From positions 1-38,860 of the IMG/VR virus record IMGVR_UViG_3300037507_003985: 38,860 bases of DNA. One strand, 5' to 3'. Positions within the stretch are counted from its first letter, which is position 1. Each line of letters starts with the position of its first letter. The DNA is from a virus. This document shows positions 4,449 to 16,514 of this stretch, piece by piece. The notes below the pieces were generated by a model. It ran no database searches. It worked only from the letters and a program-made list of their open reading frames with translations, and had not been told where the DNA came from. The translations under genes and the position numbers were made by a program.

Positions 4449-7280
4449 TTAGGCGACTCGGTAAAATGCGGTGGCACGCCATTGGATCGTTTCGGAGGCC
4501 GCTCCTGTCACTTCCAGTTGCAAGGCTTCGTTGGTGTCATCGGCGGTCAGCGCAAAAGTCCACGTTGGCGAGCCTGCGCTCTGGTCGGTGCCGAGCGTCT
4601 GAACCGTGCCGATGAGCGCCGTGTTGTTGCTGCCGTCCCTGCGGATTCCGAGGAAGCGGCGGGCGACGAGCCATTTGTCGGCGGTGTCGGAGCGGCGGGC
4701 GACAAGCAGGATGTCCACGGCGAGGGCGGTGTTGGCGGCGATCGTGAAGCGCGAGGTGGCGGTGGCGTCCAGGTTAAGGACGGTGGCGGTGGCGTTTGTC
4801 GTGCTGCCGCCCCAATACACAACGTTGAATGGCAAGGCGCCAAACATTCCGCGCAAGTTCGCATTAGCGTTGAGGCCGACAGCGTTGACGCCACTCGAAA
4901 GAATTTCTAATCCCCCGATAGACACTGCCGCAGTTGCGCGAGCGGCTCCAAAGCCCATAGCAATCGCGTTTGCTGACGTTGCGTCATAAACAGACGTTGA
5001 AATGCAAATCGAGTCATTGCCGCTTGCCAACCCTCGCCCGATGGCGATAGCCCTTGTTCCGCTGGCCGAGCAATTTGTGCCGTTACCGATAGCTGTTGCG
5101 CTGTCGCCGCTTGCCGTGACTTCGTTGCCGATGGCGATGGAGTTGGTGTTTGAAGCGACTCGCGTTGCTGCGCCACGGGCCGTTTGAATGTTTATTGCCC
5201 CCGTGCCCAACGCCGTAGTCGAAGGCGCGAGCCCAATAAACATAGACCCCGCTCCGCTGGGACGCTCCAAGGGGTTTTGATAGACGAGCTTTCCGCTGGC
5301 ATCGTTCCACACTACGGCAGGATTGGCGCTGTTGATTAAGCCGCCGTCATCGGCCACGAGGTTGCTGCCTGAAACGGAAAGCACATCTGCGGTGGTTGCA
5401 TCTACTGCGGAGATGCCGCCGCCCGCGACAGTCTGCCATGACCCATCGCCGCGCAAAAAGTTACTGGCCGAAGGTGTGCCGCTGCCCATTCGCTCAGGGG
5501 CCAACGTCCCGCTGCTGATGTTTGAGGCGTTAGTCGTGTCGGTGGTGGCCGAGGCGGCGAGGCCGAGAGTCGTGCGCTGTGCCGCTGCGTCTGCGTCATC
5601 GAGGAGAGCCTTGCCCGCTGTCGTGATGTCGCCGCCGAGCTTGGATGTTCCGACTGCGCCCGAATCAATCGTCCATGTCGCGCCCGATGCGCTGACGGTG
5701 ATGTCGCCCTTGTCGCCATCGGTGACGCCTGCGCCGCCCGTAGCCGACAACTCCCCCGCCGAAAGGCTCAAGCCCGATCCGATTTGGATCTCCTCGATGG
5801 CACCTGTGCTGGCAGTCGTCCTTCCGAGGATGCGGGCGGTGGCTTGGGTGAGGCCGCTGGTTGTGATGGCTCCCGCTGCTACCGCTCCAACGTCTCCTGC
5901 GGTGGTTGGGATGTCTGTAACGACTGCGAGAGTTCCCGACTGGTCAGGGATCGTGAGGGTTACGTCATCTGTAAGCTGCTCTTGAACATCTATTGTCGCA
6001 GTATATGGCCCTTGCTCGTCAACAAGTTTGGCGCTTGCCATAAGGATGTTGGCAAGATTTCCACCATTTTGCTCAATGCGGACATCGGGGTTGCTTCCTT
6101 GCAAAAACATCTCGCCTTGGCGAAGACCAAGCAACGCCTCATTGTTGTTTTCGTCCGTAACGGAAATGTAGGGAGTATCATTGCCGCCAGTATGTTGAAA
6201 TGTTAGCTCTTGTGATTCAAATTCAATGATATCGCTTGATGCGCCGTTTAGCGAAACTAATGAAACATCATTGCCATCATTAACGGCAAGTTGAGAAAAA
6301 GACGGAATTGGGTCTGATCCGCCCGCAACCCCGCCCGAAAGCGTGAAGCCCTCGCCGTTTTCGGGAATCTGCGACCCATCGCCCCAAATCAAAGTAGCTT
6401 GATTGGAGGGATTGGCCGAGTTCCACGCAGACAGGCGGTTAATTATCGACTGAGAGCCATTAAATGTAAGCGTGATGCTGTTGCCTGCGGTTCCAGCGGC
6501 GTTTGCGCGAACAAGAACGGGCGTGGACATCCCTGCGACTTGGCCGCTGAAACTGGCCTTGACGCCCGCCGCATGGCTGGCCGCATGAGCCAGTGTTGAA
6601 CTCGGTGTCCTCGCATCGCTCAACCGCGCATCATTCCCCTCGCAAAAGCTCCCTGCCGCCGTGCCGAAAGAACCCGCCTCGACTACGCCGTTTGTGCCTG
6701 TTTTGAGCGGGAGGTTGGCGGTGGTGCCGACTTTTCCGTCGTTGGTTAGGTTGCCGTGGGTGTGGCTGGTTGGCGTCCGAGAGTCGCCTGCGTCGTCCAG
6801 CGTAATGTTTTTGTTTGGGACGGTGATCGTCCGAGTCTGACCGGAAGCAATCGAAGCGGCAGAGAAGGCAATCTCTCTGGTCGGATCTGCAGAATCGTAG
6901 ATCCTGAAATACTGGCTGTCGTTGACCGAGGGGAATTCTCCGGCATAGTCCCAGTCGGCCAGGGTCCCGTTGTTGAAGAGCCTGACGTAGATGCCGGCGG
7001 GCTTCCGGTTGATGAACCAGACGCCGGAGTCCTCGCGAACGAGGTAGGCGGTGTTGACGGGCGGGGTCCCGACCGTGACCGGGAGATCGGCGTAGAACTG
7101 GACAGACCCGTTGACGTATCCGGCTCCGCCGCCACCTCCTCCCTCTGAGATGGCCACGAGGGCCGCGATCATGAGACGGCGCCAGGTGGCGGTGTCGAGG
7201 ATGGCCGGAATCTGAGACGGGTCGACCCCGGCCGCCAGGAGTGCCAGGCGGCGGTATTCGGCGGTGTCTAGGACGCTCAC
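4449..7280 (-). CDS. Tail fibre with YadA-head-like repeats
   Basis: A 943-residue modular fibre. Residues 1-45 are helical, followed by a seven-glycine linker (about 47-52). A globular part at 55-160 contains YLVREDSGVWFINRKPAGI, and collagen-free beta modules typical of fibres follow (SHTHGNLTNDGKVG near 172; GDKGDITVSASGATW near 530). Residues about 710-785 contain at least four copies of the AIAIG-type repeat (SIAIGNEVTASG, ATAIGNGTN, AIAIGRGLA, AIAMGFGAA) that builds the left-handed beta roll in YadA heads. The C-terminus (from about 840) looks like a compact beta domain. It should bind host surface structures. Codon composition is AT-richer around residues 340-460, suggesting a mosaic. 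The start overlaps the preceding stop (ATGA). Confidence 0.85.
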   Translation of the reverse strand: MSVLDTAEYRRLALLAAGVDPSQIPAILDTATWRRLMIAALVAISEGGGGGGAGYVNGSVQFYADLPVTVGTPPVNTAYLVREDSGVWFINRKPAGIYVRLFNNGTLADWDYAGEFPSVNDSQYFRIYDSADPTREIAFSAASIASGQTRTITVPNKNITLDDAGDSRTPTSHTHGNLTNDGKVGTTANLPLKTGTNGVVEAGSFGTAAGSFCEGNDARLSDARTPSSTLAHAASHAAGVKASFSGQVAGMSTPVLVRANAAGTAGNSITLTFNGSQSIINRLSAWNSANPSNQATLIWGDGSQIPENGEGFTLSGGVAGGSDPIPSFSQLAVNDGNDVSLVSLNGASSDIIEFESQELTFQHTGGNDTPYISVTDENNNEALLGLRQGEMFLQGSNPDVRIEQNGGNLANILMASAKLVDEQGPYTATIDVQEQLTDDVTLTIPDQSGTLAVVTDIPTTAGDVGAVAAGAITTSGLTQATARILGRTTASTGAIEEIQIGSGLSLSAGELSATGGAGVTDGDKGDITVSASGATWTIDSGAVGTSKLGGDITTAGKALLDDADAAAQRTTLGLAASATTDTTNASNISSGTLAPERMGSGTPSASNFLRGDGSWQTVAGGGISAVDATTADVLSVSGSNLVADDGGLINSANPAVVWNDASGKLVYQNPLERPSGAGSMFIGLAPSTTALGTGAINIQTARGAATRVASNTNSIAIGNEVTASGDSATAIGNGTNCSASGTRAIAIGRGLASGNDSICISTSVYDATSANAIAMGFGAARATAAVSIGGLEILSSGVNAVGLNANANLRGMFGALPFNVVYWGGSTTNATATVLNLDATATSRFTIAANTALAVDILLVARRSDTADKWLVARRFLGIRRDGSNNTALIGTVQTLGTDQSAGSPTWTFALTADDTNEALQLEVTGAASETIQWRATAFYRVA

Positions 7281-7609
7281 TTCTTGTCGAGATTGTGGTT
7301 GATGTCGCGGAGACTGCCATCGATCGACTTGAGAGACGCATCGAGATGCTGCCAGTGCCTCTCACGAGAATTGCGCTCTTCGCGAAGCTCAACGAGAAAG
7401 GTGTCACGGGCGCGATCGAGGTGGCTGATGAAGGCCGGGGCCACCTTGACCAGGAGCATGATGGCCGCAAAGGCGACGAGCCCAAAGCTGCCCATTTCGG
7501 CCACCGTGCGAAGCCATCCAAAGGACTCCATGGCCGGCGCGGCAGTTGCAAAGACGCCGAAGGTTCCGGCGGTCAGCATGGCGGCGGATGTTTTGAGTTC
7601 GAAGATCAT
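7277..7609 (-). CDS. Membrane protein with C-terminal coiled coil, possible holin
   Basis: A 110-residue protein. Hydrophobic stretches lie at about residues 9-27 and 40-62 (MGSFGLVAFAAIMLLVKVAP). They are followed by a charged, heptad-like tail (LDRARDTFLVELREERNSRERHWQHLDASLKSID), with Leu/Ile spacing as in a coiled coil. Topology and size fit a holin or an anchor of the xhlA type, but it lies among fibre genes, not beside the endolysin. It overlaps the fibre start by ATGA. A second, separate lysis-related membrane protein is possible; otherwise unknown. Confidence 0.65.
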   Translation of the reverse strand: MIFELKTSAAMLTAGTFGVFATAAPAMESFGWLRTVAEMGSFGLVAFAAIMLLVKVAPAFISHLDRARDTFLVELREERNSRERHWQHLDASLKSIDGSLRDINHNLDKK

Positions 7610-7640
7610 GGCTTGCGGGCGATTGGACTTTGGAGGGGCA

Positions 7641-7814
7641 TTAGGCGTTTATTTCTATCCCGTTTTCATCAAGTGGCGTGCTGCTTCGATGGCCCTGCTG
7701 AATCTGGCGGTTGATTGCATCAACCACTGGTGCAGCCACCCGAAACGGCATTTCACAAAGTGCCGCGCTGATTATTTGCAAGTGCTTGTCGTTTAGTTTG
7801 ATTGTATGTTCCAT
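7641..7814 (-). CDS. Short conserved-type phage protein
   Basis: A 57-residue protein beginning MEHTIKLNDKHLQIISAAL and continuing PFRVAAPVVDAINRQIQQ. I recall many phages encoding a short protein of this pattern, a leading beta strand and then a helix with PF/PY-x-V-A-A-P, usually annotated hypothetical. No membrane segment. The leader has no Shine-Dalgarno but is A/C-rich (AACAACCAACATAT before ATG). Base composition is lower in GC than the flanks, like the neighbouring tailspike, so it probably moved with it. Confidence 0.7.
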   Translation of the reverse strand: MEHTIKLNDKHLQIISAALCEMPFRVAAPVVDAINRQIQQGHRSSTPLDENGIEINA

Positions 7815-7829
7815 ATATGTTGGTTGTTG

Positions 7830-9455
7830 TTAGTTTGGAACGCGGAGCACCTTGAATCCTGTGCCGCCAGAGTCTGCAGCACCCACTGTCACGTTTTTCA
7901 ACGCGCCATCTGTCCATAAATAGATTGGGTTGTTTCCCGTGGGATCGACTTTAAGAACGGATCTTGCGCCATCCCACAATCCAAAATCTTTGGTTCCATT
8001 TCCAAGGATGTCTTGATTCAGAAGCCAATCGCCAAGATACATACCCGCTCTCTCGCTTGTAGCATGGCTGCTTGCCCAAACTCTAATCGCTGGAGCGTAT
8101 TGAGTGTCCGTCCTAATCTGTATTTTGGTCGCGGTGTCTGCTCCGTCCGGCGCGAACCCAAATGCACATATTCCGGCGTCTGCGGCCACATTGATGGCAG
8201 CTGAACTTGCTGGTCGATGCGGATGCCCGCCAAAAATGTAAAGGCCAGTATTGACAAAATCTTTGATCCCAATGCCATTGTCGATTTTGCTGTTAGAATT
8301 AAATGGCGTCCACGCACTGCCGTGCCCTCCAATGATAATTCCCCACTCATAGGCAGAAGCGGCCGAAGCCGAATGACCGTCTGTGGCCGTGCCATTGACC
8401 CCAGACCACCCGTTGATGGCGACACCAGCAAAAAGTTTGTAATTCTGGACATTGGCCGGACGAGAAAAGTCGAATCCGCCGTTTCCGGGTCGCGTTGTGA
8501 CAGTGATGCCGTAAGAACCTTCGTGGCTGGAATCTTTTGTATTTCCTGGGCAATACTTTTGAACCAAGTAGCATGCGCCTGCCAAAAAAGCCTCTCTTTG
8601 AGGATCGGACTCAGATGTCCCTGTCGGCCCGTTTATAGAAAATTCATTGTAATAGTTGCCTCCGGCAGTAATAGAAGCCGTTGGACTGCATGAAACGGCG
8701 CCGGCCATGGGAACAATTTCGGATCTGCCGCCGCCTGTCCCATTGTCCAGCGAAAACACATTGATAAAACCACAAACGGCATTGGCTGTCCCGCTCGCCT
8801 TTTGTGCCAGCGCAGCTCGCTCTTCTCCGTAGTGCAAATATCCGTAGATTGGAGTTCCAGATTGATAATACGCTGATGTGTTTGCGCGACCGTCATAGCG
8901 GCGGAAAACTGCGATGCCAGAATGTGCTTCTGCGTCTGTGGCGTTCACGTTCCACCTGTCAAACTGAAGCACATTTTGGTATGTCCCCATTTTATGAAAC
9001 TGAAAATTGCCAGTTCCAAACGGACAGTTGTTGGCGCCAAACGCCGCGCCCGCGCCAGTGATTGTGCCGTAGCTTTCAATGCGAATATCTCCAACCGGGA
9101 TCAGCCCACCGCCGCTGATGTTGTAAGTGCCGGATGGAATAATAAGGCGCTTTGACTGCGCGGTCGCCGCGTTCGCCGCCGCGACAAACGCAGCGCGGTC
9201 ATCTGCCACACCGTCGCCTACCGCGCCGAAGTCTTTGACATTAACGGCGTCGGCAAAGCGGTCGGAGATTGACCGGCGGGTGACAGAGCCAGTCGCAATG
9301 ACCGACTCGCGAGATAGCGGAAAACCTCCAGCCGTGGCTCCGTCATGCACGACGGTCGTCTTCTTGTCGGTGTCGACGGTGACCTCGCCAGGGGCCCCGA
9401 TGAAGGGTCCGTGCTGGGCCGTCGTCCCGCGTCTGAGCTGTAGCTGGCTTGCCAT
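7830..9455 (-). CDS. Tailspike with Mtd-like anchor and pectate-lyase fold
   Basis: A 541-residue receptor-binding protein. Residues 1-47 (LQLRRGTTAQ, then VTVDTDKKTTVVHDG) match the N-terminal domain known from the Bordetella phage major tropism determinant and many tail proteins, used to attach to the particle. Residues 71-110 (VNVKDFGAVGDGVADDRAAF) are the start of a pectate-lyase-type right-handed beta helix, suggesting carbohydrate binding or cleavage. No catalytic residues can be assigned to the remaining 430 residues. The anchor is GC-rich while the distal part is AT-richer, a mark of recombination. It is paralogous at the N-terminus to the next spike upstream. Confidence 0.85.
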   Translation of the reverse strand: MASQLQLRRGTTAQHGPFIGAPGEVTVDTDKKTTVVHDGATAGGFPLSRESVIATGSVTRRSISDRFADAVNVKDFGAVGDGVADDRAAFVAAANAATAQSKRLIIPSGTYNISGGGLIPVGDIRIESYGTITGAGAAFGANNCPFGTGNFQFHKMGTYQNVLQFDRWNVNATDAEAHSGIAVFRRYDGRANTSAYYQSGTPIYGYLHYGEERAALAQKASGTANAVCGFINVFSLDNGTGGGRSEIVPMAGAVSCSPTASITAGGNYYNEFSINGPTGTSESDPQREAFLAGACYLVQKYCPGNTKDSSHEGSYGITVTTRPGNGGFDFSRPANVQNYKLFAGVAINGWSGVNGTATDGHSASAASAYEWGIIIGGHGSAWTPFNSNSKIDNGIGIKDFVNTGLYIFGGHPHRPASSAAINVAADAGICAFGFAPDGADTATKIQIRTDTQYAPAIRVWASSHATSERAGMYLGDWLLNQDILGNGTKDFGLWDGARSVLKVDPTGNNPIYLWTDGALKNVTVGAADSGGTGFKVLRVPN

Positions 9456-9471
9456 GGCGTCTATATTTGGT

Positions 9472-9594
9472 TCAGCTGCTGAAAATGCGAATTATGGATG
9501 TCTTGAAGTCTGGCAACGCCACCGGATTCATCTGACTCTTTGAGTCGACGAAACCTGCGTCACCGTCGCGGACTGTTGAGCTTTCGAGGGGCAT
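9472..9594 (-). pseudogene. 40-codon N-terminal remnant of a tail protein
   Basis: The frame starts 3 bases after the spike stop and reads MPLESSTVRDGDAGF, then SQMNPVALPD, then 12 unrelated residues and a stop. The phrase ES(S/T)TxRDGDxGFxGxxxRxNPxxLP opens long virion proteins in many environmental phages, as far as I remember, where it continues for hundreds of residues. Only this opening is left here. I interpret it as a gene truncated by replacement of its body, or as a short peptide kept for its own sake. It fills the gap between the two tailspike genes. Confidence 0.5.
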
Positions 9595-9597
9595 GGG

Positions 9598-11784
9598 TTA
9601 GACGCGGTAGGTGCCGGACACTATAATGTTAGTTGTATTTTCAAAATCCGCCTCCGTCATGTTTGTGCGCGAGCCTCCAGACTGCTTATAGAGGCGAATC
9701 TCGTTCACATCTGACGAATTTATGCCCGCGTCAACATTTGCGTCTCCCAACGCCGCCGCCATAGCCCCAACGCTGACCGTATAAGACGCCGGTGAGGCGG
9801 CGTTTTGAGAGAACGGCAGTCCGCTAATGGTCGCTGCTCCAGACGCCGACCCCTTGCTTGTCAGCAAGAAGTAGCAGTCAAAATATACGCGGTTGCCGAT
9901 GCGCGTGAATGATCCAGTTCGCTGTCCGGCGCTGTAAGTTATTGCGGTTGTCGCGCCGCCAAACTCAAGGGTCGGCGTCCACGTTCCTTCTTGATACCAA
10001 TCGAGGGTGTTGGCATTGGAGTTGTCAGCGTTTCCGACAAGATTACCAACGGCGCTGTTAACCGTGTTATTTGAAGCGTTGCCAGAAATGACCAAACTGG
10101 TGATCGTTGCGCCTCCGTTGCCAATGTCCGATATGTTGGCGTGGTTGCTGGTAAACGTGTTTCCTGTAATAGAAATTGACGCTGCTGAACAAGACCCGCC
10201 CAGCACAATTGCGCGGGTGTTGGCCTTGTAAGAAATGGCATTTCCGTTGCTGTCATTGACAGGAAAATAAAACACATTGCCGCTGATGACAGCAGATGAT
10301 GCGTCTACTAAGCGAATGCATCCGCGATCTGCGATTTCTTGAATGCAGTCGCGGAACGTGCATCCAACCACGCGGAGATCAACGTCATCAGAGGCACAAG
10401 AAATACCGTCTTCGTAACAATAACGGAAACGGCATCCAATAATTCCGACTTCGGTTGCAGTCTCTTCGTCAATATACATTGCGGCATCCATCTGCCCAAA
10501 CGTGCAATCCGTAAAGTTGTGGATGGCGTTGCGAGAAGCCGTTGGAGAGTTTTCGCGGATGTGGACTCCCAGCGGAGTTGGCGAGTCTGCTGCTGTCACC
10601 AACCCGTCGCCGTTTTGGTCGGTGGAGTTGCTATAAGCCAGTCCCCCATCGAAATAGCATTGGTCAAACCAGCAATCATAAGTGTGATCTCCAGCGCCAA
10701 CGATATTTACCATCTCGACCGTCGCTCCAGAAATGTAGCAGTTAGAAAATGCTGCATAGTCATTTCCGCTTACGGTTACTGCTCGACCGGACGTAAACAC
10801 TGCGCCAATAATACAGTTATCATACACAATCGTGAAACCAGTGATTCCGCCGCCTGTCGTCGAGTTCCTTATGGTAACTACGGACGCAGAGCTAATTGGT
10901 GTGTTGGCAATAAAGTTGCGTGCGTTGAGTGCCAAGTTAGAAAAATAGCAATTACGGCAACCCGATGTAATAATTGCAGATGGAAACCCGCTCACATAAC
11001 AGTTGGTCATCGAGCAGCCAAGTCCGCGATCAAACTCAATGCAGATGCTGTTCTGTGTTGTGGCTGAAAGTTTATTAAATCCAAGGTTGGCGACCACAAC
11101 TCCAGATATGTCTGGATGGCTTGCGTTTCCGCTTTCTGATTGAACCAGCACGGCGGGCTGGTTAGTGTCAGCAAAATACCAAAGCTGGCACGCATTGCGG
11201 GCATCGCCTATGAGACAAGTGTTGTTGCGCTTAATACGAAGTTGCTGGCTAAATTTGTAAATTCCGCTTGGGAAATAAATGGCTTTTCCAGCGTTTGCAT
11301 CGATAGCGGCCTGTATCGCCGCCGTGTCATCCGCCACACCATCGCCCACGGCGCCAAAGTCTTTGACATTGACCGTCCCGTTGATCGTGTTCAGACCCTT
11401 GGCCAGCTCGGCGCCGGTGGCTCGCTTGGTGATGCCGCCCTGCTGGATGATGAGTTCGTCGGCGGCGTTGACGGTTGTGGCGTCGGTCAAGGACGGAACC
11501 ACGGTGTTCCAGATGGCCTGCTGTGTGAATAACTCCTGCGCCGTTGCACGCTTGACAACACCCGACTGACGGACGATCAGCTCGTCTGCGGGGCCGACCG
11601 TAGTTGCGTCTGTGAGAAGCGGAATCGCGACATTGAGAGGCGCGATCTCCTTGCCACCCATAGTGGTGCCGTCGTGGACCCTGAGAGAATCGCGGTCGGT
11701 GTCGACCGAGACCTCGGCGACGGCGCCGGTGAAGGCATCGCTCTGTGCGGTCGTGCCGCGCCTGAGCTGTAGAACCTGTGCCAT
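9598..11784 (-). CDS. Large tailspike with Mtd-like anchor and right-handed beta helix
   Basis: A 728-residue receptor-binding protein. Residues 1-47 repeat the anchor seen in the neighbouring spike (LQLRRGTTAQ). Residues about 53-122 hold two copies of a 40-residue unit (LTDATTVGPADELIVRQSG and LTDATTVNAADELIIQQGG). Residues 137-170 (VNVKDFGAVGDGVADDTAAI) begin the pectate-lyase-like helix, which continues through repeated rungs (SNCYISG, VVGCTFRDC, ISGNVFYF). The C-terminal part (from about residue 600, GTWTPTLEFGG) is a separate beta domain common at fibre ends. It probably binds or degrades surface polysaccharide. DNA for the helix is AT-richer than the anchor. Confidence 0.85.
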   Translation of the reverse strand: MAQVLQLRRGTTAQSDAFTGAVAEVSVDTDRDSLRVHDGTTMGGKEIAPLNVAIPLLTDATTVGPADELIVRQSGVVKRATAQELFTQQAIWNTVVPSLTDATTVNAADELIIQQGGITKRATGAELAKGLNTINGTVNVKDFGAVGDGVADDTAAIQAAIDANAGKAIYFPSGIYKFSQQLRIKRNNTCLIGDARNACQLWYFADTNQPAVLVQSESGNASHPDISGVVVANLGFNKLSATTQNSICIEFDRGLGCSMTNCYVSGFPSAIITSGCRNCYFSNLALNARNFIANTPISSASVVTIRNSTTGGGITGFTIVYDNCIIGAVFTSGRAVTVSGNDYAAFSNCYISGATVEMVNIVGAGDHTYDCWFDQCYFDGGLAYSNSTDQNGDGLVTAADSPTPLGVHIRENSPTASRNAIHNFTDCTFGQMDAAMYIDEETATEVGIIGCRFRYCYEDGISCASDDVDLRVVGCTFRDCIQEIADRGCIRLVDASSAVISGNVFYFPVNDSNGNAISYKANTRAIVLGGSCSAASISITGNTFTSNHANISDIGNGGATITSLVISGNASNNTVNSAVGNLVGNADNSNANTLDWYQEGTWTPTLEFGGATTAITYSAGQRTGSFTRIGNRVYFDCYFLLTSKGSASGAATISGLPFSQNAASPASYTVSVGAMAAALGDANVDAGINSSDVNEIRLYKQSGGSRTNMTEADFENTTNIIVSGTYRV

Positions 11785-14354: not shown

Positions 14355-15043
14355 TTCAGTGTCTCCTCGAGTTCGGCCCTCGCCGCCTCGATTCCTCCCC
14401 AGCTCCAGAACTGGCGGGCATGGACCCGCCCCTGCTCCGGAAGACGCCAGACAAACTGGCCGTAAAAATACTTCCATGCGACGGCTCCGAGCACGTTGAA
14501 TTCGCTGAAACTCCGGTGGGGACGAGAGATGACATACTCCTCGAATGGCATCCCGTGGATCTGCTCGATCAGCCGGCGCGTCTCGCCGTAGAGCCACCTG
14601 GGATACATGAAGGGATGACGGCGCATGAATTCATGTTCCGGAGTCCATCCCAGAATCTCGGCCACGACCGGCTGCCACGGGCTGCCCGTCTTTTCATAGG
14701 GCTCGTGAAACAGGACGACCCGGCCGTCTTCCAGGAAGTCCTCGGGCGACGTCTCTCTGGTCAGCATGACGTCCGAGTCCATGTGCATGACCAGATCGGC
14801 ATCCGTGAACGTGTCGGCCAGCATCTTGGTGATCTGTTGCCCGAGATAATCGTCCTGATGGCGGGGACACTCATGGATGATCTCCTCGGTCAGGTGCCGG
14901 AGAGGACCTGAGTCTCCCTCTGGCACCACGATGTGCACCTTCCGAAATCCCCTGGCGTGACGTCTGATCTGGTCGAGGCAGTGCCACAGCCAGCAGAAGT
15001 CGCCAGGATAGGTCCTGATCAGGATGTCGGCGACGGGATGCAT
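14351..15043 (-). CDS. Glycosyltransferase, DUF6492-like
   Basis: A 230-residue protein. After an opening strand (ADILIRTYPGD) and HIVVPEGDSG, the sequence has MHMDSDVML with a clear DxD (around residues 88-90). It then has HEPYEKTGSPWQP, EFMRRHPFMYPRWLY and SFSEFNVLGAVAW. This order matches the DUF6492-type glycosyltransferases as I remember them. It probably transfers a sugar from a nucleotide donor. It overlaps the methyltransferase by 25 bases and the next glycosyltransferase by 4, so the block is one translational unit. Confidence 0.75.
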   Translation of the reverse strand: MHPVADILIRTYPGDFCWLWHCLDQIRRHARGFRKVHIVVPEGDSGPLRHLTEEIIHECPRHQDDYLGQQITKMLADTFTDADLVMHMDSDVMLTRETSPEDFLEDGRVVLFHEPYEKTGSPWQPVVAEILGWTPEHEFMRRHPFMYPRWLYGETRRLIEQIHGMPFEEYVISRPHRSFSEFNVLGAVAWKYFYGQFVWRLPEQGRVHARQFWSWGGIEAARAELEETLK

Positions 15044-15675
15044 AGGATGTCATACTGGAGGCTTCGCTCGGGCGGAAACGACCGCGTCGTGTAGCCGAGA
15101 GACCCGATGAACTCAAGAAGCTGGTCTGGCGTGGTGCCACGCCTCTCGAGAGCGTGCTCGTTGACCTCGATCCACATGGACGGGCGGCATCGGCGGATCG
15201 TGTCGACGGCCCCGTGAAGGGCCTCGAGCTCGCATCCCTCGATGTCGAGCTTGATGAAGTCGCATCTCTCGAGGTTGATCGCGTCGAGCGGGATCAGGTG
15301 GATCTCTCCCGGGGTCTCAACGACGTGCCCGGCTCCGGCATTGAGGGCCTGGGCATAGCCGATCAGCCGCTCCTGGTCAGAGAGGCCTCCCTTCACGAGG
15401 ATCGCCTCTGGACAGTTGTGCTCGAGACACTCGAGGGCCTCAGGATTGATCTCGAGGGCCACGACGTGTCCGTCTGGGCCGACCCGGTCGAGATAGGCTC
15501 TCGTGTGGTCTCCGATAAAGGCTCCGGCGTCGACGACCCAGTCTCCTGGCCTGATGTGCTTGAGGATGACCGGAAGAGCATACTGGTCGTGGTCAAGACG
15601 ACCTGCCTGCTCGACCCACGCCGAGATGTGGGTGTCGTGCTCGATGACAGCGATGTTGTTTGGCAGAATCTTCAT
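15019..15675 (-). CDS. FkbM-type SAM-dependent methyltransferase
   Basis: A 218-residue class I methyltransferase. SAM-binding motif I is VVDAGAFIGDHT (residues 47-58), followed by the acidic strand end ALEINPEA (73-80). The FkbM signature FIKLDIEGCELEALHGA starts near residue 140 with Asp144 and Glu146. FkbM enzymes usually O-methylate sugar hydroxyls, which suits the three glycosyltransferase neighbours. I infer that the block builds a methylated glycan. It overlaps the next gene by 25 bases and the previous one by 4. Confidence 0.88.
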   Translation of the reverse strand: MKILPNNIAVIEHDTHISAWVEQAGRLDHDQYALPVILKHIRPGDWVVDAGAFIGDHTRAYLDRVGPDGHVVALEINPEALECLEHNCPEAILVKGGLSDQERLIGYAQALNAGAGHVVETPGEIHLIPLDAINLERCDFIKLDIEGCELEALHGAVDTIRRCRPSMWIEVNEHALERRGTTPDQLLEFIGSLGYTTRSFPPERSLQYDILCIPSPTS

Positions 15676-16514
15676 AGGACCTCATCAAGGGCTGACGTGT
15701 GCATGCCGTAGACCCCGTGGCCGACATGGAGGGCATGAAGCATCGTGTCGACGTGCGGCTGGAATCCGCACTCCTTGGCCCTGGCACAGAAGGCAATGTC
15801 CTCGCCGCGCCCGTCGTTTTCTGGCTGGAAAAAGTTGAACGGCATCTCGGGATTTGTCGGATTGAGCTCTGGAAACTTGGTCTGCATCGCCTCGAACACC
15901 CTGCGGTGGATGAGCAGACAGCCAGTCCCGATCCAGTCGCAGGGCATGGTCCCGTCGTGAAACGAGGCGACCCTTGCCCGATAGGTCTGGTCGAGCGCCA
16001 GGCTGTTGATGGCACGGCCCTGGGGATGTCTGGAGAAATAGGTGGCTCCGACGATGTCGGCACCATGCCCGACCAGTCGATGCACGACGTGCAGCGCCGT
16101 GGGAGCCGTGGGATACGAATCTGGCAGCCGGCACATCGCCCGGAGGAAATCTGGGCGCCCGATCGGAGGAATCATGTCATCGTCGAGAAACAGGAGCCAC
16201 TGGGCCTGGGTCGCAAGAAACTTCATGGCAAGCTCGTTGCGGGCGTGGTAGATCATCGCGTCGCCGACCTGCATGTCGAACCGGACTTTCTCCTTGCCGA
16301 GATCGAGCGCAATCGCGAGAAGACACCAGGCCGTGGCCGGGTTGGTCTGCTTGTAGCACGGAAAGCCGACAAACAGATCCCTGCCCAGCCACTCGGCCTC
16401 CTGCTTCCAACCCAGCGGAGCCTGGGTCTGGATGACGGTCGTCGGTCCGAGATCCAGGTCTTCTGGATCGACGCCGTCGATTCGTCCGGCATTGGCCATA
16501 CCGGTGTGGCTCAT
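15672..16514 (-). CDS. Glycosyltransferase-like protein with DDD motif
   Basis: A 280-residue protein. The core runs from FVGFPCYKQ (residues 48-56) through ARNELAMKFL to WLLFLDDDMIPP, where LDDDM is the DxD metal site, then DIVGATYFSR, IGTGCLLIHRRVF and GEDIAFCARAKECG. GEDxxFCxRAxxxG is the acceptor-side motif of many GT-A enzymes of family 2 and related types, seen often in phage genomes. It is the first gene of the sugar block and overlaps the scaffold stop by ATGA, so expression is coupled to virion assembly genes. Confidence 0.8.
   Translation of the reverse strand: MSHTGMANAGRIDGVDPEDLDLGPTTVIQTQAPLGWKQEAEWLGRDLFVGFPCYKQTNPATAWCLLAIALDLGKEKVRFDMQVGDAMIYHARNELAMKFLATQAQWLLFLDDDMIPPIGRPDFLRAMCRLPDSYPTAPTALHVVHRLVGHGADIVGATYFSRHPQGRAINSLALDQTYRARVASFHDGTMPCDWIGTGCLLIHRRVFEAMQTKFPELNPTNPEMPFNFFQPENDGRGEDIAFCARAKECGFQPHVDTMLHALHVGHGVYGMHTSALDEVL

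Follow-up and report, generated by a model that had tools for sequence, protein, structure and literature searches.

The two paralogous tailspike genes of IMG/VR virus record IMGVR_UViG_3300037507_003985, from an uncultivated virus, have very likely been shaped by exchange of bodies between co-infecting phages at domain borders, the anchors being kept by slot. The whole stretch of 38,860 bases is called the window here. Both genes lie on its minus strand, spike 2 (slot A) first and spike 1 (slot B) after it. Closely related phages possess common anchors with different bodies behind them, the bodies of the window are reused on other anchors, and breakpoints between window and relatives can be located. 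The parts of the two genes are listed below; L numbers denote the loci compared, and ORF stands for open reading frame, aa for amino acids and nt for nucleotides.

9598-11784, minus strand: spike 2 (slot A), 728 aa, with Mtd_N anchor, two linker repeats, seam and pectate-lyase-like body (ORF, Pfam, PHROG tail and tail spike profiles)
11653-11784, minus strand: slot-A Mtd_N anchor, residues 1-44 (Pfam PF18454)
11371-11616, minus strand: linker of spike 2 with two repeats in tandem, the first (repeat 1) from 11616 and the second (repeat 2) from 11490
11326-11370, minus strand: seam of spike 2, NVKDFGAVGDGVADD (sequence comparison)
9601-11325, minus strand: body of spike 2, recurring in L015-L017 on another anchor and in L018-L020 after a start that lacks an anchor
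7830-9455, minus strand: spike 1 (slot B), 541 aa, with Mtd_N anchor, ATGS..RFAD linker, seam and body (ORF, Pfam, PHROG)
9324-9455, minus strand: slot-B Mtd_N anchor, residues 1-44 (Pfam PF18454)
9198-9242, minus strand: seam of spike 1, NVKDFGAVGDGVADD (sequence comparison)
7833-9197, minus strand: body of spike 1, recurring on a gp17-like anchor in L004 and more distantly in L026

Domain architecture of the two spikes

Pfam Mtd_N (PF18454) matches residues 6-41 in both spikes (51 bits in spike 1 and 40.3 bits in spike 2; curated cut-off 26.3), which identifies both as Mtd_N-anchored. The pectate-lyase-like family PF12708 starts at residue 71 in spike 1 and at residue 138 in spike 2 (40.2 and 62.9 bits; cut-off 27) and places both among the beta-helix tailspikes by sequence, the match in spike 1 being limited to residues 71-137. 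PHROG matches of the two proteins are mainly to tail and tail-spike families. An initial annotation had described a shared anchor and a shared joint, and the peptide VNVKDFGAVGDGVADD is indeed common to both. The anchors constitute the second region in which the two genes are alike (91 nt at 75%), the first being the seam.

Named phages matching the window DNA amount to 14 records with short matches covering at most 3% of the query, and a peptide search matched 15 Vibrio phages, again over short stretches. Two scans of genome contigs for a host confirmed no relatives of the Mtd_N anchor alignment or of the terminase.

Anchors and bodies in sister phages

An Mtd_N scan gave 46 loci, 10 of which match the window DNA and were reduced to eight distinct sister phages (L053 and L055 are identical, as are the spikes of L056 and L057). 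Over the adjoining 2.7-4.3 kb their backbones are 93.9% (L050), 95.4% (L051), 94.8% (L052), 93.6% (L053), 81.2% (L054), 90.1% (L056), 93.1% (L059) and 92.9% (L093) identical to the window. A slot-A gene is present in seven of the eight, L093 having none upstream of its single gene, and a slot-B gene likewise in seven, the L054 contig ending inside slot A. The spike-2 body occurs in none of the seven slot-A genes of the sisters: five carry other bodies (28-32% in best local alignment), and two, L059A with only 90 aa and L056A with only 148 aa, are without a seam. In slot B, L050B is identical to spike 1, five of the seven genes hold other bodies and L056B has no seam. The anchors cluster by slot and not by genome, since residues 1-44 are 73-98% identical within the eight slot-A anchors, 80-100% within the eight slot-B anchors and 57-70% between the slots.

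The same anchor is therefore found with different bodies in close relatives, the pattern that defines modular exchange. No body is common to slot A and slot B in any of 42 pairs, and local identity reaches 44% at most. Relatives that carry both spikes unchanged over their full length had been named as evidence that would speak against swapping; such a pair was found in none of the eight sister loci. Window spike 1 was also found at 99.8% in L005.

The same bodies on unrelated anchors

The body of spike 2 is 97.9% identical in nt in L015-L017 (L015 and L017 are identical and L016 stands at 99.7%), where it follows an anchor that we take to be T7-gp17-like, in view of PHROG tail-fibre profiles, and where the DNA upstream of the motif is unrelated. 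It is about 84% identical in L018-L020, in which the gene starts at the linker. The spike-1 body recurs in L004 (77.5% nt), on a gp17-like anchor, and L026 resembles it at 69% nt over part of the length and 55% in residues. A third body is common to L030 and L041 (80% nt), behind different linkers. The presence of one body on unrelated anchors (L015-L017 for spike 2 and L004 for spike 1) again indicates modular exchange.

A scan that used the gp17-like anchor plus linker (205 residues) found 27 loci with widely different bodies; six of these are on contigs already in the set, and L048 matches the linker only. A scan with the alternative slot-A body of L005 gave 23 loci, one being the L005 contig itself, the next two 40% alike over about 360 residues and the remainder matching shorter stretches. 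Repeat loci from contigs already in the set (L023, L024, L025, L028, L029 and L032) were left out of the nt comparison.

These distributions bear on the possibility that the two spikes are paralogs of an old duplication whose exposed bodies diverged fast, with anchor and motif being conserved. The common domain order and fold family of the spikes would agree with such plain divergence, and so would the distant likeness of some sister bodies (L052A and L053A, 37%). However, it predicts agreeing body and anchor trees, which the observed reassortment contradicts, and it leaves unexplained both the near-identical bodies on unrelated anchors (L015 and, less closely, L004) and the near-identical anchors and linkers that lead to different bodies (window and L051A) in backbones 81-95% identical. 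We consider it extremely improbable.

Positions of the upstream joints

Thirteen breaks in similarity separate the window spikes from those of the sisters, three of them at the seam or immediately before it and 10 farther upstream, in the linker or around the anchor end. In slot A, similarity to L051 continues through linker repeat 2 into the seam and is then lost, and L050 is 66-93% alike in repeat 2 with a different body. Similarity to L052, L053 and L054 is lost in the linker near 11544, the seam forming an island of 70-86%, while that to L056 and L059 fades around the anchor end. In slot B there is no break with L050, one near 9280-9250 (just upstream of the seam) with L053, and one at about 9400-9280, around the anchor end, with L051, L052, L056, L059 and L093. 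The expectation that related phages would break at the seam is hence borne out for three of the 13 cases but not for the other 10, and from this spread upstream joints fall at no fewer than three sites, the seam among them.

Several joints can be resolved to tens of bases or less. L052A and L053A show two differences in the 66 nt of linker, none in the next 12 (NVKD) and 10 in the 33 nt that complete the seam, and window spike 2 differs from L051A at five positions in the 66-nt linker and nine in the 45-nt seam, the best body match being 28%. L015 and the window have seven differences in the first 36 nt of the seam and none in the next 101; L059B and L093B have 16 in the 66-nt linker, 10 in the 45-nt seam and two in the next 33. 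Between window spike 1 and L053B, agreement is lost about five codons ahead of the seam.

The linker of spike 2 is composite in itself. Its repeat 1 resembles L052-L054 and its repeat 2 resembles L051 and L018; the two repeats are identical to each other at 55 of 90 nt, and the single linker repeat of L050 can be aligned to either. Spike 2 thus combines two linker repeats and has its upstream joint within them, about 120-170 nt upstream of the seam.

The near-identical seam

The 43-nt stretches 9200-9242 and 11328-11370 are identical at 38 positions, confirming the five differences counted in the initial annotation, and all five are synonymous (NVKDFGAVGDGVAD in both). This is the best 43-mer match between the two genes, and 20 shuffles of spike 1 reached 24-28 at best. 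The flanks in seam register are mostly less than 40% alike, in line with the unrelated sequence that had been described beyond the seam. The reported fall in composition was likewise recovered when guanine-plus-cytosine (GC) content was compared: spike 1 goes from 64.8% in anchor and linker to 52.2% in the body (74.3% and 50.3% at third codon positions, GC3) and spike 2 from 63.5% to 50.4% (GC3 78.8% and 52.7%). In spike 1 the best GC change point is reached 85 nt past the start of the seam, in spike 2 after 65 nt, and it exceeds every one of 200 shuffles.

What the seam encodes is the motif at the N-terminus of the pectate-lyase-like fold, and phmmer aligned the same stretch to cellular enzymes (a beta-1,3-glucanase, 5m5z; an alginate epimerase, 2pyg; and a pectin lyase, 7chu). 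A literature search with fragments of this peptide led to two papers, neither related by its title. Between the two window seams 10 of 16 codons are identical, against 6.4-8.2 expected from three codon-usage tables (P 0.05-0.26). Among spikes with a recognisable seam motif, excluding L050B and L018, 123 seam pairs unlike in both bodies and linkers agree at 641 of 1,476 codons against 593 expected (ratio 1.08). A mild excess, 1.23 times expectation, was seen in 186 different-body pairs with the common ATGS..RFAD linker type, as would be expected if linker and seam descend together. The ratio for 10 pairs with another linker in common is 0.97 in the seam and 1.85 in the 12 codons directly upstream. 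Slot-A and slot-B seams agree at 25 of 48 codons within genomes and at 170 of 317 between genomes (omitting L050A, with a non-standard seam, and L050B, the same as spike 1), so no within-genome excess is found.

One could regard the seam as a true DNA handle, kept alike between the slots by recurrent crossover or gene conversion and driving swaps between slot A and slot B. The 38 of 43 identical positions invite this reading, as do the 70-86% island between unlike linkers and bodies (window against L052, L053 and L054), the breaks that map into the seam and the 1.23-fold codon agreement of the ATGS..RFAD pairs. However, codon agreement between the window's own seams is near expectation, as it is for the 123 mixed-linker pairs (1.08) and the 10 pairs of the other linker (0.97); seams within a genome are no more alike than seams between genomes; none of the 42 slot-A/slot-B pairs shares a body (at most 44% local identity); and 10 of the 13 breaks between window and sisters lie upstream. 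We find such a handle improbable. The near-identity arises because an identical, fold-conserved peptide is encoded under codon bias, and given the codon null and the pair statistics it does not demonstrate on its own that the two genes have exchanged sequence; the 43-nt match was accordingly rejected as a demonstration that the DNA serves as a handle. Of the swap handle proposed in the initial annotation, the exchange of bodies behind anchors that stay is upheld, together with some breaks in or next to the seam (L052A/L053A and L015/window), but the near-identical DNA no longer counts as evidence for it.

The 43-nt near-repeat could also be a point at which metagenomic contigs were misjoined, and the window and all relatives used are IMG/VR virus contigs. 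Yet the same arrangements recur in separately named contigs (spike 1 in L005 at 99.8%, L053 and L055 identical, L015 and L017 identical, L016 at 99.7%), reading frames are open across the joints, and the joints at 9504-9512 and in the linker lie off the repeat. Assembly artefacts at the conserved motif are thus a very improbable source of the pattern.

A model for body exchange

In the explanation we favour, exchange of bodies at domain borders, two paralogous tailspike genes would occupy two fixed slots. A slot-specific Mtd_N anchor would attach each spike to the tail, followed by a short linker and by a beta-helix (pectate-lyase-like) body that would bind, and probably cut, a host surface sugar. 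During a presumed co-infection, recombination would replace the body and the sequence up to the next conserved gene, with anchor and backbone being kept. The upstream crossover could fall at the anchor end, in the linker, or in the NVKDFGA.GDG motif at the beta-helix start, and chimeras would survive selection when the joint respects a domain border; short homology there may help and would not be required. For the crossovers, the evidence leans towards selection of working joints rather than guidance by short homology. Genes of the record match a Holliday junction resolvase and an exonuclease family, and phage-borne recombination is therefore possible.

The role as virion spikes and the binding and cutting of sugars by the bodies are predicted from family knowledge, which also makes two receptor specificities likely. 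An extended version would see the locus as a two-slot exchange system, with slot anchors that do not mix and with cassettes of fixed downstream border (where the slot-B gene or the 110-aa gene described below begins) and nested upstream joints (anchor end, repeatable linker and motif); the two specificities would be renewed independently at a high rate, with crossovers favoured by short homology plus selection. We are doubtful of this version and rate it as rather unlikely.

Several points weigh against body exchange at domain borders as we propose it. Among the sister loci only L050 has a full spike in common with the window, and the bodies of L052A and L053A are 37% alike over 593 residues, so that this joint unites diverged relatives and not unrelated bodies. 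The counts of seam pairs are not independent of each other. Moreover, L015 and window spike 2 differ in patches inside the body, at nt 137-233 and 1370-1760 from the seam, which are separated by 1,136 identical nt; this clustering suggests that recombination may occur inside the body too, and the differences in the seam are therefore not unique there. Single-chain structure models of the two spikes have mean pLDDT values of 32.5 and 35.0, too low for use, and the receptor or enzyme activity of both is a prediction from family knowledge.

Comparison with known systems

The range of bacteria open to attack by a phage is set by its tailspike bodies, and body exchange is a known route to changed binding. 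P22-like phages possess one spike gene per phage, and Bordetella phage BPP-1 varies one protein, Mtd, by a diversity-generating retroelement. Mtd has the same N-terminal domain as the window spikes (Pfam Mtd_N; PDB 1yu0-1yu4), and the window DNA matches BPP-1-like phages at 77-78% over 115 nt. Here, in contrast, the body is exchanged, and reverse transcriptase (PF00078) gave no match in the record (38,860 bases, possibly a fragment); retroelement-diversified Mtd of the BPP-1 type was rejected on this account.

Conservation of the anchor with replacement of the body is well described for P22-like tailspikes, Klebsiella phages with two receptor-binding proteins and Kuttervirus (PMC2629481, PMC6872550, PMC8432352), and in a broad survey the domains over-represented in recent shuffling include pectin-lyase-like ones (PMC10684548). 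The P22-like tailspikes (P22 and epsilon34) likewise combine a conserved N-terminal head-binding domain with receptor domains without recognisable sequence similarity, but their anchor is other than Mtd_N (PMC2629481). KP32-type Klebsiella phages resemble the present locus in having two depolymerase-type genes with conserved N-termini between conserved genes, swapped enzymatic domains, and truncated forms of one partner (compare L059A, 90 aa; PMC6872550). In these phages the second protein is proposed to be carried by the first through a T4gp10-like dock on the latter (PMC6872550), whereas both proteins here have the same anchor family, and Pfam, from which a remote copy could escape, gave no match to a T4gp10-like docking domain in either spike. 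The Pfam search thus gave no sign, on the first protein, of the dock of anchor-branched dual receptor-binding proteins (G7C / KP32 type).

A further close parallel concerns Kuttervirus (Ackermannviridae), in which several spikes per phage (TSP1, TSP3 and TSP4) have conserved N-terminal regions and receptor-binding modules are proposed to swap at a short conserved motif upstream of the module (PMC8432352). The anchor is a different one, however, and the motif, GTTAVSL, is located at the distal end of the TD1 domain (PMC8432352). Kuttervirus modules are also proposed to move between spike types (PMC8432352), whereas no body was seen in both slots here. The locus is hence a well-resolved case of known modular dual receptor-binding proteins, and its contribution is the sister series with slot-specific Mtd_N anchors and resolved joints. 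In this natural series the backbones are almost the same and the bodies in the two slots differ, which allows homology-guided swaps to be weighed against selection for working protein joints. The locus also cautions that paralogs may show a short DNA seam of near-identity for which a conserved peptide is explanation enough.

The downstream joint and neighbouring genes

The features downstream of the two spikes are as follows.

9504-9512, no strand assigned: joint at the 3' side of the slot-A cassette, with likeness to L050/L005 reaching up to 9504 and likeness to L018-L022 starting at 9512 (BLAST ends)
9472-9594, minus strand: 40-aa ORF MPLES.., a truncated 5' piece; the L018 version has 532 aa, and homology to the L018 group stops at 9512
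7615-7641, minus strand: 27-nt repeat of 9568-9594 (78%), which reads MPLQSP.. and lies immediately upstream of the 110-aa gene; similarity of L015 and L051 to the window resumes here
7277-7609, minus strand: 110-aa gene (MIFELKTSAAMLTAG..), downstream border of the slot-B cassette

DNA similarity of the window to L018-L020 spans 9512-11487, and L021 and L022 also stop at 9512. With BLAST ends at 9504 and 9512 the 3' joint is therefore pinned to about 8 nt, and it has reduced the downstream gene to the start contained in the 40-aa ORF. The repeat at 7615-7641 reads as a putative shorter relic of the same gene start. Relatives of the 110-aa gene follow shortly after many of the spikes examined (e.g. 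L004, L015, L027 and L030). The 532-aa L018 version of the truncated gene has weak virion-structural and endosialidase beta-barrel matches.

A 57-aa ORF after spike 1 (7641-7814, minus strand) belongs to a family of 53-62 aa ORFs (..LQVISAALCELPYRVAAPVIDAIN..) with eight distinct forms, mostly located shortly after spike genes. Further members are at L004:7775, L005:5729, L008:7643, L026:6240, L033:6311, L035:6627 and L040:6242. Six forms were scanned and gave no Pfam or PHROG match with E below 0.1; the family may travel with the body.

A 943-aa gene (4449-7280, minus strand) has a YadA-head match that stays below the curated threshold, and its GC content dips near 6000-6450. In L016 the gene is matched in pieces only (82-90%), and it may be mosaic too. 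In the backbone adjoining the spikes (15019-16514, minus strand), a methyltransferase-family match at 15019-15675 is accompanied by a weak glycosyltransferase match at 15672-16514.

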